The notes: generated from the letters alone by a model not told the origin. 64,000 nt of DNA from Mucilaginibacter sp. (GCF_028287845.1 NZ_JAQBOW010000154.1:1-64000); one strand, 5' to 3'. Shown: positions 56,448 through 63,379, counted from the first letter of the stretch. Translations and numbers: made by a program.

Positions 56448-57926
56448 ATGTTTTATAAACTTTCTTTTTCAATTTTATTTATATCTGCTTACAGTTTAAC
56501 CGCAAATGCGAATTTCAATTTTAATGGTCGCTGTGTTGAGGCTTATAAGGATATATTTCACCTTAAATTAAATGATGCGAGATCAATTATAAGGGAAGAA
56601 AAAAAGCAAAGCCCGCAAAATGGGGTCCCTATTTTGCTGGATAATTATATTGACTACGTTAACCTGTTAATGTCTGACAATAAAGCGGATTATGAAAGGC
56701 TAAAAGATTATCAGTCTGACCGGATAGACGAGTTGGAAAACAATGATAAAAACTCACCTTATTTTCTTTACGCCCAAGCCGAGGTTTATTTGCAATGGGG
56801 AATAGTAAAGGCAAAGTTCGGCGATTATTTTTCATCATTCAGTGACCTAAAGAAAGCCCGCAGCCTGCTTAAAGAAAATACTGCAAAGTATCCGGATTTT
56901 CTGCCCGATCAAAAGGACGCCGCCATAATAGATGTTATTTTAGGAGCGCTGCCATCAAATTTAAAAAGTATTACAAAATTATTGGGGATGAGTGGAAATG
57001 TCCAATCTGGCATATCCCGGCTTGAAAAGCTCAGAGCGGAGATCGGCACTACTAAATTCACCCATTATAAAGATGAATTAACCTTTTCTTTATGTTATAT
57101 GCATTTAGATGTTTTGCACACCACTCATAATTACGATCGGCTTATGTTGTATGTGAAAGACATGGATAATAGTACTTTAAGGGACTATTTAAGCGGTTAT
57201 GTAGCTGCAAAAAACGGCTATAATGATGAAGCGATAGAATGCTTTATGCGCATTCAAATTCCACCACAGCAATTTGCTTTACCTACGGCAACCTATATGT
57301 TAGGGTACGCTAAATTATGCCGGAGAGACAGCGATGCCAATCTTTATTTACTCCGTTATATAAAAGAGTATAAAGGCTCTAAATATATTAAAGACGCTTA
57401 TCTTAAACTTGCCTACTATTATCTTTTAGACAGCGACGTGTCAAAATACAATTACTATTTAAATATGGTGCGTAACAACGGCTATTTGACCGATGAAAAA
57501 GACAAGCAAGCACTAAGAGAGGCAAATGATTCTCCGCCAGATGCCGATTTGTTAAAAGCCCGGTTATATTATGATGGCGGTTATTACAACAAAGCGTTAG
57601 CACAATTAAAAAACAAACAATTAAACGATTTTAAACTATTACGCGACCGGGTGGAATATATTTATCGGCTTGGCAGGGTATATGAAAAAACGGCGAAGTT
57701 GAATGAAGCTATAGCCAGCTATCAAAAGGCCATAAGCCTTGGCAAAGCAATGCCTTATTATTATGCCGCGAATGCAGCATTGGGGGCCGGACACATTTTT
57801 GAAGAAAAAAAAGATTATAATACAGCCGCCTATTATTACAACATGGCACTTGATATGAAGAACCATGAATATCAAAACAGCACAGAATACGAGGCAAAGC
57901 AAGGTTTAGAGCGCATTCATCATTAA
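56448..57926 (+). CDS. Tetratricopeptide repeat secreted protein
   Basis: Signal peptide; VEYIYRLGRVYEKTAKLNEAIASYQKAISLG, AAYYYNMALDM. Confidence 0.82.
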   Translation: MFYKLSFSILFISAYSLTANANFNFNGRCVEAYKDIFHLKLNDARSIIREEKKQSPQNGVPILLDNYIDYVNLLMSDNKADYERLKDYQSDRIDELENNDKNSPYFLYAQAEVYLQWGIVKAKFGDYFSSFSDLKKARSLLKENTAKYPDFLPDQKDAAIIDVILGALPSNLKSITKLLGMSGNVQSGISRLEKLRAEIGTTKFTHYKDELTFSLCYMHLDVLHTTHNYDRLMLYVKDMDNSTLRDYLSGYVAAKNGYNDEAIECFMRIQIPPQQFALPTATYMLGYAKLCRRDSDANLYLLRYIKEYKGSKYIKDAYLKLAYYYLLDSDVSKYNYYLNMVRNNGYLTDEKDKQALREANDSPPDADLLKARLYYDGGYYNKALAQLKNKQLNDFKLLRDRVEYIYRLGRVYEKTAKLNEAIASYQKAISLGKAMPYYYAANAALGAGHIFEEKKDYNTAAYYYNMALDMKNHEYQNSTEYEAKQGLERIHH

Positions 57927-58585
57927 TAATATTTAATACGCTCATCTGTATAACGAATATTTGCAGCTATTGCCTTTTGATGATGCTGATTTACGTGTTC
58001 TTGTAACTGGTCAAAATCAAACGTGTGGTTTGTTCCGCAATCCAGCATATTAAAATAAACCGATGGCCGGAGGCTTTCAAAATACTCTGTCAAATTGCTG
58101 CTCCATATTAACTGAGTGTTTCCTTTGATGCGGGGAATGATTTCGGTAATGCCGTACTCGAAATAAATACGCCTGATATGGCAGCTTTCCAATTTAGCCT
58201 GGGGATAAAAAAGCAGCAGGTTACCCGGTTCCGACAAAATTTCAGCAGCGTAATCAAAACTTTCACTAATGGAAGCTTTGCCCGGATCTACTGAAAAACT
58301 ACCAATGTACCGTAGCCATTTGTTTTTTTCCATTTGTTTTTTTAACGACATGATATAAAGGCGCTTCATCCCTTCTTTTTTCCATAGCACTTTGTTGCAT
58401 AAATACATTGCCAGGAAACCATCCAAAAAACTAAAATGGTTGCACATTAAAAGGTACGAAAGCCCGGGTTTTATGGGCACATCATTTATAATCAGCCTAT
58501 TAAACCGCCTTTTAAAAACCAGTTCGATCAAAGCCGCTGCAATCTTAAAAAAAAATGGCGACATGGGCTTCGATTTAATTATCAT
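57923..58585 (-). CDS. Lysophospholipid-type acyltransferase (PlsC-like, HX4D)
   Basis: LLMCNHFSFLDGFLAMYL (HX4D); LLLFYPQAKLES. Confidence 0.85.
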   Translation of the reverse strand: MIIKSKPMSPFFFKIAAALIELVFKRRFNRLIINDVPIKPGLSYLLMCNHFSFLDGFLAMYLCNKVLWKKEGMKRLYIMSLKKQMEKNKWLRYIGSFSVDPGKASISESFDYAAEILSEPGNLLLFYPQAKLESCHIRRIYFEYGITEIIPRIKGNTQLIWSSNLTEYFESLRPSVYFNMLDCGTNHTFDFDQLQEHVNQHHQKAIAANIRYTDERIKYY

Positions 58586-58639
58586 GGTAATAAATGTTAA
58601 TATGGAAACAAAAATAATGCATGGCCACTTGTTTTAATT

Positions 58640-59041
58640 TTAGCAAGACTGTTTAATAAGAGCAATGGCCCAAACATAGTCGCCATCATGCGATATGGTT
58701 ACGCTAATATCGTATTTTCCGGGATACTGGTGCATAATAACATGGGGCCGCCCTGCTGTTTTTTCTCTAATTATTTCAATTTTTTTCCAGGCTAAACCAG
58801 CATTACTTATTTGCTTAACTGCTTTATAAACCGCCTCTTTGGCCGCCCAGGTAGATGCGTAGCGTAGTAACGAATTATCAAATAAATCGCAATAGGTCAT
58901 TTCGGCGGGGGTATAAACCTTATGCTTAAACACATCGGTTAAAGAGAGTTGAAAAACGGGCATAAAAACCAGATCGTTGCCCACTGCAAATTTATCATCG
59001 ATCCTGCATTCGCTAAGGGTTTTTAAAATTTCATTCTCCAT
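58640..59041 (-). CDS. 4'-phosphopantetheinyl transferase (AcpS-like)
   Basis: FAVGNDLVFMP, YASTWAAKEAVYKAVKQ, VTISHDGDYVWAIAL. Confidence 0.88.
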   Translation of the reverse strand: MENEILKTLSECRIDDKFAVGNDLVFMPVFQLSLTDVFKHKVYTPAEMTYCDLFDNSLLRYASTWAAKEAVYKAVKQISNAGLAWKKIEIIREKTAGRPHVIMHQYPGKYDISVTISHDGDYVWAIALIKQSC

Positions 59042-59843
59042 CTATCCCAATACCCATAATATTAAACCCGCCATCTACAAAATGAATATTGCCGGTTACT
59101 TTTTTTGAAAGATCAGAAAAATAGTAAAGCGCTGTATTGCCTACGTCGCCGGCATCTATGTTACCTAAAGGAGCGGTTAATTTACCCATCTTGCGCAGCT
59201 TACGAACCCCATTTATCCCCCCTGCAGAGGTAGTCATTACCAAACCGGCAGAAATAGCATTAACCCTTACTTGTTTGTTCCTAAAATAATCGGCCAGGTA
59301 CAAAACAATATTCTCCAGCGCGGCTTTGTTAATGGACATGCCGGCATAACCCGGAAATACCCTTTGCGAAGCATTATAGGTAAGTGTTAATATCGAAGCA
59401 TTTTTTGCCAGGAAACTCTCGGCAACCCGCGCTATTCTAAGCAACGAATAAGCGCTTATATTAAAGGAATCCATCAGATCCTCAAAGGGAATATCCAAAT
59501 ACGAGGGGGCCGGTTCGGTACTGCCGGGTAGGCTATAACACATTACCGACTGGTTGCCAAAGGCCACTCCGTGTAATAAGTAATCAATAGGGCCCAGTTT
59601 ATCATGAACAAACCGCACGAATGCTGTTATCTGCGCTTCATCCCTTACATCCACTTCGACGGCATACTGTTTATCCATACCCATCTTTTCCATCAGGTAC
59701 AAAACATTCTCTTTGGTATCGGGTACATAACTCAAAGCAACCTTACACCCCGATTGATGTAGTTTTAGGGCAATATCATAAGCGATGGAACTATCATTCC
59801 TGACCCCAAATATTACCGCTACTTTATTTAGGTTATCGATCAT
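59031..59843 (-). CDS. Enoyl-ACP reductase, FabI-like SDR
   Basis: GVRNDSSIAYDIA N-terminus; LTLTYNASQRVFPGYAGMSINKAALE (Y...Y...K); NAISAG. Confidence 0.9.
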   Translation of the reverse strand: MIDNLNKVAVIFGVRNDSSIAYDIALKLHQSGCKVALSYVPDTKENVLYLMEKMGMDKQYAVEVDVRDEAQITAFVRFVHDKLGPIDYLLHGVAFGNQSVMCYSLPGSTEPAPSYLDIPFEDLMDSFNISAYSLLRIARVAESFLAKNASILTLTYNASQRVFPGYAGMSINKAALENIVLYLADYFRNKQVRVNAISAGLVMTTSAGGINGVRKLRKMGKLTAPLGNIDAGDVGNTALYYFSDLSKKVTGNIHFVDGGFNIMGIGIDGE

Positions 59844-61192
59844 AGTAGTTCCCTTGAAACAGAAATTGCACTATTGGTTCCGCCAAACCCATAATTAAGA
59901 CAAACAATGCGGTTAATTTCTTTGGAGATAGTTTCCTGTAAAATCAGGTCGCGATAAGCTTCCAGCGGTTTTACCGGCCCCTTCCACCCAATCGTTTTTT
60001 GAATAGCCTCCAATTCGGGGTTAAGCGTTACAGCGTTTAAACAAGGCAAAACCTTTTGTTGCTGCAGCATCAGTAAGGCTGTAATAAACTCTACCGACCC
60101 CGCCGCGCCCAGCATATGGCCAAACTGCGATTTTGGGGCCGATATATGGTACCCCTTTTCGCCCATAACATCCACCACGCTTAACAATTCAATGGCATCA
60201 CCTACCGGGGTTGATGTGCCATGCACTTTAACTACATCGGGTCTTAATTCAGAATTATCTAATAAGCCTTCCCATAGTTTTTTCTGCCCGGAAAATGAAG
60301 GAAAGAACATATTGCCATCACCATCCGAATTATTAAAATAATTATCAATTACGCCTAAAATATGGGCTCCTCTGGCCTTTGCCATCTCATATTCTTCTAA
60401 AGCTACAATACCGCACCCAAACGAACAAACAAAACCATTGCGGTTAACATCAAACGGGCGCGAACTTTCCAGCGGACTGAAACCCCGGCTTAATACCTGC
60501 ATTGCATCAAAGCCGATAAATGTTTCTAACGATGTTCCTTCTACCCCACCAGCAATTGCACGGTCCTGAAGGCCATACCTGATTAGGCGGTAGGCATAGC
60601 CTATATTGCCCAGACCTGTTGCACATGCCGAGCCAATCGACTCGCAAACACCTTTGTTTTTTATTAAACAGGATACATTAGCGGCATCGCGATAAACCAT
60701 AGCGCGGTCAACCGTATGTGAGCCGGCTGCACGGGTTTTTTTTCCTAATTCAAAAAAATTATGCCAGGCCGATCTTAATATTACATGCCCCGCCCCGCCC
60801 GAGCCTATAACTACACCCGTTTGCCCGGATTGTGTTTCCGCCTCTGTCCATCCGGCCATTTTAATAGCATCCAACGAGCCCAGCATTGACCATATACTGC
60901 CAACATCAGCAGTTGATAAATTGGCATCAGGTATTCTTTTCAGTTTATCTATATAGGTTTCGGGATAATTTTCGGCCAGTGTGGAGTATATAGGTTCCAA
61001 ACCCATTTCGGCCTCTGTAATATAACCAGATACAGTCGACCGTATATTTTTACCATGCGCGGCGGCTTCGCCCCATTCTCTAACCAGGCTTTTTCCCGAA
61101 AATAGCTTATCGCTAAATTCGGCAAGGTTGGCACAATCCGGGAAAGCCCCGCCCATGCCTACAACAGCTACCCTTCTGCCGGCTATTTGCAT
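59840..61192 (-). CDS. Beta-ketoacyl-ACP synthase (KAS II-like)
   Basis: GSACATGLGNIGYAY, VKVHGTSTPVGDAIEL, FGHMLGAAGSVEF (C-H-H triad). Confidence 0.95.
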   Translation of the reverse strand: MQIAGRRVAVVGMGGAFPDCANLAEFSDKLFSGKSLVREWGEAAAHGKNIRSTVSGYITEAEMGLEPIYSTLAENYPETYIDKLKRIPDANLSTADVGSIWSMLGSLDAIKMAGWTEAETQSGQTGVVIGSGGAGHVILRSAWHNFFELGKKTRAAGSHTVDRAMVYRDAANVSCLIKNKGVCESIGSACATGLGNIGYAYRLIRYGLQDRAIAGGVEGTSLETFIGFDAMQVLSRGFSPLESSRPFDVNRNGFVCSFGCGIVALEEYEMAKARGAHILGVIDNYFNNSDGDGNMFFPSFSGQKKLWEGLLDNSELRPDVVKVHGTSTPVGDAIELLSVVDVMGEKGYHISAPKSQFGHMLGAAGSVEFITALLMLQQQKVLPCLNAVTLNPELEAIQKTIGWKGPVKPLEAYRDLILQETISKEINRIVCLNYGFGGTNSAISVSRELL

Positions 61193-61452
61193 TATTCGCG
61201 TTCTTTCACTGTTAATATTAAATCAACTATATCCTTTACTTTCGAGCCGAGGTTATCAATATCATCATCGTCAAATTCCACGTCGAACTTCTGTTCGGCT
61301 TTGGCAGCAATGTTTATCATTTCGGTTGATGGTGTATTTAAATCAGCTATAAAATCTGTTTCTTCTGTCACCTTATTTAACTTTTGGGGATCAATGGTTC
61401 TTACAGTTTTTAAAATTTCAACCAATCCATCAATTATTTCTTGTCTTTCCAT
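61192..61452 (-). CDS. Acyl carrier protein, atypical Ppant site (TPSTE)
   Basis: DFIADLNTPSTEMINIAAKAEQKFDVEFDDDDIDNLGSKVKDIVDLI. Confidence 0.9.
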   Translation of the reverse strand: MERQEIIDGLVEILKTVRTIDPQKLNKVTEETDFIADLNTPSTEMINIAAKAEQKFDVEFDDDDIDNLGSKVKDIVDLILTVKERE

Positions 61453-61456
61453 TTAT

Positions 61457-62002
61457 TTATTTAAAATTATTTGTTCTGATCGCTCTTCCGGTAATGTCGG
61501 TTAATTCGGCTATAAGTTTAAAGTCTTCGCTTAAGTCATAGCCCAATAGGCGCTCCTCATTAAAACCACTAAAATAGTCATCTAAATTTAAACTTGCGGG
61601 TACCTTATAAATTCGGCCGGTGCAAACCATTTGTCTGAACTTGTAGCTTTGTATGTTGCCTATGCTTATAAATATATCGCCCAATTCTAAATAGCTATAA
61701 AAATTAACCTGCCCAACACTTGTAAACACGGGCACAAAATTACGTTTCAGATCATCAAAACTACAGACCTGTTTTTGTGTTTCGATAAAAGCGCCGCAAG
61801 ATACAATGGTTGATTGCGCGAACGCCTCTATTTGATCCACGCCCCTAAAAATACCAAAATGATCTTCTACATCCCGCTCCGTTGGCGAATAGCAAGCTAC
61901 TATACCCGCATTGGGCGAATGCCATAGATAACGGGTGATCATCAATTTTGTTGGGCCATGTACCAATACATCTTCAGGCGGTATGCCTACCAGGTTATCC
62001 AT
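61457..62002 (-). CDS. FabA/FabZ-type hotdog protein, putative 3-hydroxyacyl-ACP dehydratase
   Basis: DHFGIFRGVDQIEAFAQST resembles FabZ/FabA PHFPGxPVMPGVLxxEAxAQ. Confidence 0.78.
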   Translation of the reverse strand: MDNLVGIPPEDVLVHGPTKLMITRYLWHSPNAGIVACYSPTERDVEDHFGIFRGVDQIEAFAQSTIVSCGAFIETQKQVCSFDDLKRNFVPVFTSVGQVNFYSYLELGDIFISIGNIQSYKFRQMVCTGRIYKVPASLNLDDYFSGFNEERLLGYDLSEDFKLIAELTDITGRAIRTNNFK

Positions 62003-62020
62003 GTTATAAAATTGATTCTT

Positions 62021-62740
62021 TTAAATTAAACCGCCATTAATATGCAGGTTGGTTCCATTGATATAAGCTGCTTTATCTGACAATAAAAAGGCTATTGTTT
62101 CGGCAATTTCATCAGCTTTTCCAAACCGGTGCGCCGGTATCATTTTAAGGTATTTTTCCTTTTCGGCTTCCGGAATAGCCGTAGTCATGTCTGTTTCAAT
62201 AAAACCGGGCGAAACGCTTAAAACCCTTATGGTATGCTCATGGTTAAGCGCGGCAACCTCCTGGGCCAACGACCTGGAAAACGCTACTAAACCTGCCTTA
62301 GTAGCCGAATACACCGCCTGGAACGCGTTACCGGTTTCGCCAACAACCGAACTCATATTAATTATTACACCTGTTTTATTTAATCCGAAAATTTTCATCG
62401 CAGTTTTACAGATCATAATGGGCGCCTTTAAATTTATATTCAGCATCCGGGTAATTTCCTGCTCGGGCTGGTAGATTAATGATTTATCAAACGTTACCCC
62501 GGCATTGTTCACTACGGCATACAAGGTATCGCCATGTTCTTTTTTTAGTTGTTTGCAAAAAGCTGCCAGTTGGTCGGGGTGTGAAAAATCTGCACATAAA
62601 ATCTGGCTGCCCGGTTCAATAGAAGTAAAGCTTTCCGGACTGGAGGCATGAAGAATTAAAGAATATTCTGCTGATAATTTTTTGGATATTGCCAGTCCCA
62701 GCCCCCTGCTTGCTCCGGTTATCAATACCTTTTTCTTCAT
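62021..62740 (-). CDS. 3-oxoacyl-ACP reductase, FabG-like SDR
   Basis: ITGASRGLGLAISKKL, VNNAGVTFD, NMSSVVGETGNAFQAVYSATKAGL, SPGFIETDMT. Confidence 0.94.
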   Translation of the reverse strand: MKKKVLITGASRGLGLAISKKLSAEYSLILHASSPESFTSIEPGSQILCADFSHPDQLAAFCKQLKKEHGDTLYAVVNNAGVTFDKSLIYQPEQEITRMLNINLKAPIMICKTAMKIFGLNKTGVIINMSSVVGETGNAFQAVYSATKAGLVAFSRSLAQEVAALNHEHTIRVLSVSPGFIETDMTTAIPEAEKEKYLKMIPAHRFGKADEIAETIAFLLSDKAAYINGTNLHINGGLI

Positions 62741-62926
62741 GGAATGTGGCCTGGGTTTAAATAAAATGCTAATAGCAAACTTAACATTTTTGTTTAAAAA
62801 GGAGTATTTTATATTAACGATGATGTAAATAAAGTATAGTACCGGGTAATATTTAACCTTTGAATAACTAAAATTAGCCCGTAGGTGTTTAAAACTTATA
62901 TTTACCGCCAGTATAAAATACCATTA

Positions 62927-63379
62927 ATGAGTAGTTTAAAAGAAGCGTTATATAAACAATGCCTTGATTATGTGCAACAGCGTATGCAAGCCGCCGAACA
63001 GGGAATTAAAGAGGCGCAAAAAGCGGCAAGCGATGATACCAAAAGCAGCGCCGGCGATAAATACGAAACCGGCCGGGAAATGATGCAGCAGGAAACCAAC
63101 CGTAATATGGCCCAGTTAAATGAAGCTAATAAATTAAAGGTGGCGCTAACACTGGTTAATACCACTGCAGAATTTAAACAGGTAGAAACCGGCAGTGTGG
63201 TTATTACCAATAATGGCAATTTTTACTTAGCCATAAGTGCAGGTACGCTTACTGTTAATGGCGAAAACTATTTTGCCATTTCGCCGGCATCGCCTATCGC
63301 GTTAAAAATGAAAGGGCTAAAGGTTGGGGATAAGTTTAGCTTGAATGGGAAGACCTATGCACTAATTGACACGAATTAA
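62927..63379 (+). CDS. Conserved hypothetical protein (helical N-terminus, possibly GreA/GreB-type C-terminal fold)
   Basis: ORF with start at MSSLKEALYKQ; GSVVITNNGNFYLAIS...AISPASPIALKMKGLKVGDKF. Confidence 0.65.
   Translation: MSSLKEALYKQCLDYVQQRMQAAEQGIKEAQKAASDDTKSSAGDKYETGREMMQQETNRNMAQLNEANKLKVALTLVNTTAEFKQVETGSVVITNNGNFYLAISAGTLTVNGENYFAISPASPIALKMKGLKVGDKFSLNGKTYALIDTN

Follow-up and report, generated by a model that had tools for sequence, protein, structure and literature searches.

A dedicated fatty acid synthase-like operon with its own carrier protein and a putative acyltransferase in Mucilaginibacter and related Sphingobacteriaceae

The window analysed here, a stretch of 64,000 nucleotides from Mucilaginibacter sp. 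(GCF_028287845.1, NZ_JAQBOW010000154.1:1-64000), carries a compact fatty acid synthase (FAS)-like operon that is a real, conserved system of a known kind and apparently undescribed; no description of it was found in the open-access papers searched. Judged from its genes, the operon may be dedicated to type II acyl synthesis and transfer and acylate an envelope acceptor, a reading to which we give about even weight; the acceptor would most likely be a glycolipid. This gene set, present in about a fifth of the sampled Sphingobacteriaceae genomes, predicts an acyl product for which no matching description was found. In some soil Bacteroidota the usual fatty-acid genes are accompanied by a further compact set, which appears to assemble a distinct acyl chain on a carrier protein of its own and to pass it to an acyltransferase.

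Gene content and enzyme identities

The operon occupies positions 57923-62740 on the minus strand and, as the first-pass annotation had proposed, consists of seven same-strand genes, whose open reading frames all lie at the claimed place with intact motifs. Its features and its convergent neighbour are as follows.

62021..62740, minus strand: KR, FabG-like 3-ketoacyl-ACP reductase; Pfam PF13561/PF00106, S-Y-K aligned with E. coli FabG
61457..62002, minus strand: DH, divergent FabZ-type hotdog dehydratase; AlphaFold2 and Foldseek, H48/E59, no Pfam or NCBIfam name
61192..61452, minus strand: ACP, dedicated acyl carrier protein; serine in PST, not DSL, S42 invariant, NCBIfam below cut-off
59840..61192, minus strand: KAS, beta-ketoacyl-ACP synthase; Pfam, C-H-H intact, own clade in the tree
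59031..59843, minus strand: ER, FabI-like enoyl-ACP reductase; NCBIfam FabI ~189 bits, below cut-off, Y/Y/K invariant
58640..59041, minus strand: PPTase, AcpS-superfamily phosphopantetheinyl transferase; PF01648, TIGR00556
58586..58639, minus strand: 54-bp gap, site of an alpha/beta-hydrolase gene (c7) in most relatives; hydrolase missing here, one at G000:C121
57923..58585, minus strand: HX4D acyltransferase, PlsC/LPLAT fold; NHFSFLD motif, H50/D55 invariant, Foldseek PatA/LpxM, paralogue passes PF01553
56448..57926, plus strand: TPR protein, N terminus resembling a signal peptide; convergent with the acyltransferase gene, 4-bp overlap with its end, co-inherited with the operon

Recomputed from KR to the acyltransferase gene, the intergenic distances are 18, 4, -1, -4, -11 and +54 bp, so that the overlaps claimed earlier, of 1 bp (ACP/KAS), 4 bp (KAS/ER) and 11 bp (ER/PPTase), are correct. 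The acyltransferase gene is the only one set apart, and an extra gene occupies the same gap in most relatives. No clear promoter or terminator of the operon was found beyond chance counts. A gene for a GreA-like protein (below cut-off) lies divergent from the operon at 62885-63379 of the window; a similar gene at L182:10052-10501 adjoins a free-standing hydrolase-acyltransferase pair.

The FAS-like identities first assigned by motif (S-Y-K in KR, a FabA/Z hotdog DH, C-H-H in KAS, Y/Y/K in ER, an AcpS-type PPTase and HX4D in the acyltransferase) are confirmed by profiles, alignments and the DH fold. KR, KAS, ER and PPTase pass Pfam; with the exception of the PPTase domain (PF01648, 41.7 bits against a cut-off of 25; TIGR00556, 54.2 against 45.4), no NCBIfam model above cut-off gives an operon member a specific name. 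The best NCBIfam model for KR, 3oxo_ACP_reduc, scores 210 bits, below its cut-off of 298, and KR fails the model of flexirubin FlxB (172 bits, cut-off 340). DH matches nothing in Pfam or NCBIfam; its AlphaFold2 model (pLDDT 93.1) resembles FabZ in 50 of the 50 Foldseek matches listed (best E 2.3e-8), and H48 and E59 are invariant across 26 aligned relatives. ACP fits NCBIfam weakly, has AcpM as its nearest PDB relative (E 3e-11) and carries its serine, S42, within TPSTEM rather than DSL, invariant in 16 relatives. KAS, with FabB as its nearest PDB relative, forms a separate clade (100/99) whose long branch lies on the FabB side of the tree; the tool flags a long-branch join with the KAS of dialkylresorcinol (DAR) clusters. 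Plasmid carriage of KAS was considered and rejected, the matches listed being FabB-like and below 40%. The Y/Y/K pattern of ER is invariant, as are H50 and D55 of the acyltransferase. The latter has no Pfam match and a fold model of moderate quality (pLDDT 84), with weak Foldseek matches of low TM to PatA (5.8e-4, the sole E < 0.001) and LpxM (2.8e-3); a paralogue in the same genome, 36% identical, passes Pfam PF01553.

We rejected the operon as the primary FAS because AcpP-FabF (contig C20), FabI (C95) and the single FabD (C17) of the same genome sit on other contigs. Comparison with these fab genes upholds the earlier proposal of a separate FAS-like set, dedicated and equipped with an ACP, a PPTase and an acyltransferase of its own. 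Calling it self-contained was too strong, because FabH and FabD are missing from the operon and two more partners that belong to it, an alpha/beta-hydrolase and the TPR protein, had been overlooked. Malonyl-ACP loading, and perhaps the primer, would therefore have to come from the primary FAS. It is improbable that the operon simply backs up the primary FAS under some conditions (e.g., with a second ER that confers inhibitor tolerance) and has no special product. All of its cycle enzymes duplicate primary functions, the FabI-like ER being a second copy (32-36% identical to the FabI on C95), but the divergent ACP and KAS, the lack of FabH and FabD, and the dedicated ACP, PPTase, acyltransferase, hydrolase and TPR partners all speak against this.

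In the mechanism that we favour, the PPTase would arm the operon's own ACP, KAS would lengthen the chain with malonyl units that the one FabD of the genome loads, and KR, DH and ER would reduce the growing chain. The LPLAT-type acyltransferase, with the alpha/beta-hydrolase, would then move the finished acyl group from acyl-ACP to an envelope acceptor. A saturated or partly reduced product, handed on to some acceptor, may reasonably be expected, in line with the first-pass annotation. What we observe directly is gene content, motifs, folds, conservation, co-occurrence with the hydrolase and the TPR gene, and separateness from other FAS systems; we infer what the enzymes do, which chain they make, which acceptor receives it and what part the TPR protein plays.

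Distribution and the TPR partner

A scan of genome contigs returned 70 related loci, with KAS 63-83% identical, spread over Sphingobacteriaceae, the order that contains them, and Zobellia and Aquimarina. KR-DH-ACP-KAS-ER-PPTase stand together in 62 of the 70 and are joined by the acyltransferase in 58, several of the loci without the full order being truncated contigs. A search for the same gene order across Bacteroidota, suggested by the first-pass annotation, finds it recurring across Sphingobacteriaceae in ~60 loci, and its retention in ~60 genomes rules out chance for the operon. By the KAS profile the operon is present in 58/301 Sphingobacteriaceae genomes; the DH profile matches 3 of 396 Bacteroidota genomes, all three Sphingobacteriaceae. 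The Zobellia and Aquimarina loci keep the order, with FabA and a different hydrolase added and no acyltransferase, so that transfer by that enzyme would not be universal. The Zobellia hydrolase was considered as an orthologue of c7 and rejected, the two not being alignable.

Presence varies within one genus, which suggests that the operon is accessory and probably moves between genomes. In Pedobacter insulae (L020:2162-17200) and P. planticolens (L063) it lies between rpsL-rpsG-fusA-rpsJ and the S10 ribosomal operon and so breaks up a run of genes that is usually uninterrupted. In the wider neighbourhood, no family other than the hydrolase and the TPR gene recurs outside close relatives.

Relatives of the TPR gene adjoin the operon in two arrangements, either convergent downstream or co-directional upstream. 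Of the 63 TPR sequences placed in a tree, 50 are set off from the other 13 by a single 100/100 branch. Every member of the clade of 50 comes from an operon-bearing genome, and the 13 others belong to operon-free genomes (nine) or to operon-bearing ones with the other type (four). Assigned by identity class, the clade is found in 36 of the 40 genomes with the operon and in none of the 40 without it, although in these co-occurrence counts, as in those below, same-genus genomes are not independent and some of the signal may be shared ancestry. Six of the 50 clade genes are unlinked from FAS genes, and in one genome (G516) the acyltransferase gene has been relocated together with the TPR gene. The TPR gene behaves as a co-inherited partner of the operon, also when unlinked.

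The hydrolase-acyltransferase pair and the candidate acceptor

The alpha/beta-hydrolase (ABH) gene, which lies between the PPTase and acyltransferase genes in most relatives, is not in the window operon. The genome's own ABH is a 32% paralogue at G000:C121, with another LPLAT and a GT2 glycosyltransferase as neighbours. Among 80 genomes examined, ABH is found in all 40 that bear the operon, within it in 36 and elsewhere in four: at the GT2 locus in the genome studied, G516 and G598, and standing alone in G500. G476 holds an additional, broken second copy. Within the genus, the ABH of the GT2/carotenoid locus is kept in 0/15 genomes that have an operon copy versus 20/23 that do not; the P values computed from these counts take no account of relatedness and so exaggerate the contrast. 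In operon-free members ABH adjoins LPLAT2 in 17/17, and the three without ABH are also without LPLAT2. Because the ABH copies exclude each other and ABH and LPLAT2 come and go together, the ABH-LPLAT pair appears to behave as a single acylation unit, replaceable by the operon. The same pair would serve either the operon or the glycosyltransferase/carotenoid locus, and the fact that the two hydrolase copies exclude each other offers a rare handle on the acceptor.

ABH-acyltransferase pairs are also found away from the operon and without FAS. Three of them (L182:10609-12113, L183:8765-10242 and L184:10536-12013) have neither FAS nor glycosyltransferase neighbours, and the hydrolase of L184 is interrupted by a stop.

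The hydrolase might alternatively free the chain from ACP as a fatty or hydroxy acid (a signal, a pigment or a sphingolipid precursor), with the acyltransferase serving another pathway. We hold this for a poor candidate. The invariable presence of ABH in operon-bearing genomes fits it, and so does the Zobellia variant with its hydrolase and no acyltransferase; against it stand the acyltransferase kept in 58/70 loci and the recurrence of the ABH-LPLAT pair without FAS.

The GT2 locus of genus members without the operon reads WaaA-ABH-LPLAT2-LPLAT1-GT2-CruF-IspH, with CrtI beside it or elsewhere. Where CrtI is missing within the genus, LPLAT1 and CruF are also gone and GT2 is kept in 10/11 operon-bearing genomes; outside the genus, GT2 is lost together with CrtI. 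Taken together, loci L156:7013-13186, L166:8779-11391 and L170:6749-11148 show the GT2 locus losing LPLAT1 and CruF along with the carotenoid genes and keeping GT2. Since GT2 outlasts the loss of LPLAT1 and CruF, it may have a non-carotenoid role. Among the 40 operon-bearing genomes GT2 is missing from six and CrtI (at E<=1e-90) from 16, which argues against either the GT2 product or a carotenoid being required as the acceptor; a carotenoid ester as the sole product was rejected on the same CrtI count. Either a glycolipid made by GT2 or a carotenoid glycoside could thus serve as acceptor in part of the genomes, but not in general.

The operon might instead provide the acyl moiety of a carotenoid glycoside, its acyltransferase and hydrolase being kin to the pair of the CrtI/CruF/GT2 locus, but we regard this as unlikely. 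The paralogues of both share a locus with GT2 (a weak CruG match), a PF04240 carotenoid synthase, IspH and CrtI, and operon-free members of the genus hold ABH-LPLAT2 there. However, CrtI is absent from the 16 genomes mentioned, the operon and GT2 persist in the genus when CrtI, LPLAT1 and CruF are gone, and ABH-LPLAT pairs also stand apart from the carotenoid locus.

The complete cycle, the conserved order, the distinct KAS clade and the co-occurrence of ABH (40/40) and of the TPR clade (36/40 vs 0/40) argue for a dedicated acyl-synthesis and transfer system; the weak fold match of the acyltransferase and its absence from Zobellia and Aquimarina weigh against it, and we see the two sides as roughly balanced. 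More tentatively, and with rather less confidence, the operon could be a horizontally moving FAS-acyltransferase module for an undescribed Bacteroidota envelope lipid, whose acyltransferase-hydrolase pair displaced that of the glycolipid locus and whose TPR protein is a partner for the product.

Comparison with known systems

The genome also holds a flexirubin cluster on contig C132 (L094:18-12922), in which FlxA, FlxB and FlxY pass curated cut-offs, and a DAR locus on C87 (L095:896-7046) with DarB above cut-off. Their location elsewhere in the genome bears out the earlier view that the operon is distinct from both, and its identity with either was rejected; in the 80 family genomes examined, DarB is missing from 25/40 operon-bearing ones and present in 15/40, one of these a weak match. 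The window operon contains none of DarA, DarB, FlxA, FlxB and FlxY, nor aryl-polyene KS/CLF partners or an aryl starter ligase, and its single KAS has an intact C-H-H. The first-pass argument that such clusters normally have no FabI-type reductase fails to separate the operon from DAR, because in the DAR locus, where DarB and a DarA-like gene are divergent from an SDR-FabZ-FabF-ACP-PPTase block, the SDR scores best, below cut-off, as the enoyl reductase FabL. Resorcinol chains may come from this block, itself another small FAS-like set.

The DAR locus resembles the operon in its small FAS-like block, its own ACP without DSL and its PPTase, but the operon has no adjoining DarA or DarB, and PPTase, DH and KAS clade differ. 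The flexirubin flxA-flxY cluster (PMC3992019) is likewise a type II FAS-like pigment assembly; unlike the operon, it has TAL, a ligase and several KS. Supply of dialkylresorcinol or flexirubin side chains by the operon is very improbable. Both clusters occur in the same genome and a FAS-like block stands beside DarA/DarB, but the DAR locus owns that block, KR fails the FlxB cut-off and most operon-bearing genomes lack DarB. The carotenoid CrtI-LPLAT1-GT2-CruF-IspH locus of Sphingobacteriaceae shares with the operon a paralogous acyltransferase and alpha/beta-hydrolase; it has no ACP/KAS cycle, and its carotenoid genes are missing from many operon-bearing genomes.

The rhizobial/Agrobacterium VLCFA cluster is AcpXL-FabZXL-FabF2XL-FabF1XL-AdhXL-LpxXL (PMC11901934). 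Like the operon, it combines a dedicated ACP, dehydratase, KAS and terminal acyltransferase in co-directional genes beside a primary FAS. Its chain, of C26-C28, goes to an envelope lipid, and transfer to such a lipid is also what we propose for the operon. Where the operon has one KAS and SDR reductases of FabG and FabI type, the rhizobial set has a pair of FabF paralogues and a reductase of Adh type; the operon also has its own PPTase and hydrolase and TPR partners. The rhizobial acyltransferase belongs to the LpxL/MsbB family and acts on lipid A; the LPLAT of the operon is distantly LpxL/M-like, with no sequence match. With one KAS, SDR reductases, its own PPTase and a different acyltransferase, the operon is not a member of the AcpXL-LpxXL group, yet in its predicted logic, with a distinct chain assembled on a separate ACP alongside the primary FAS, it is closest to that system.
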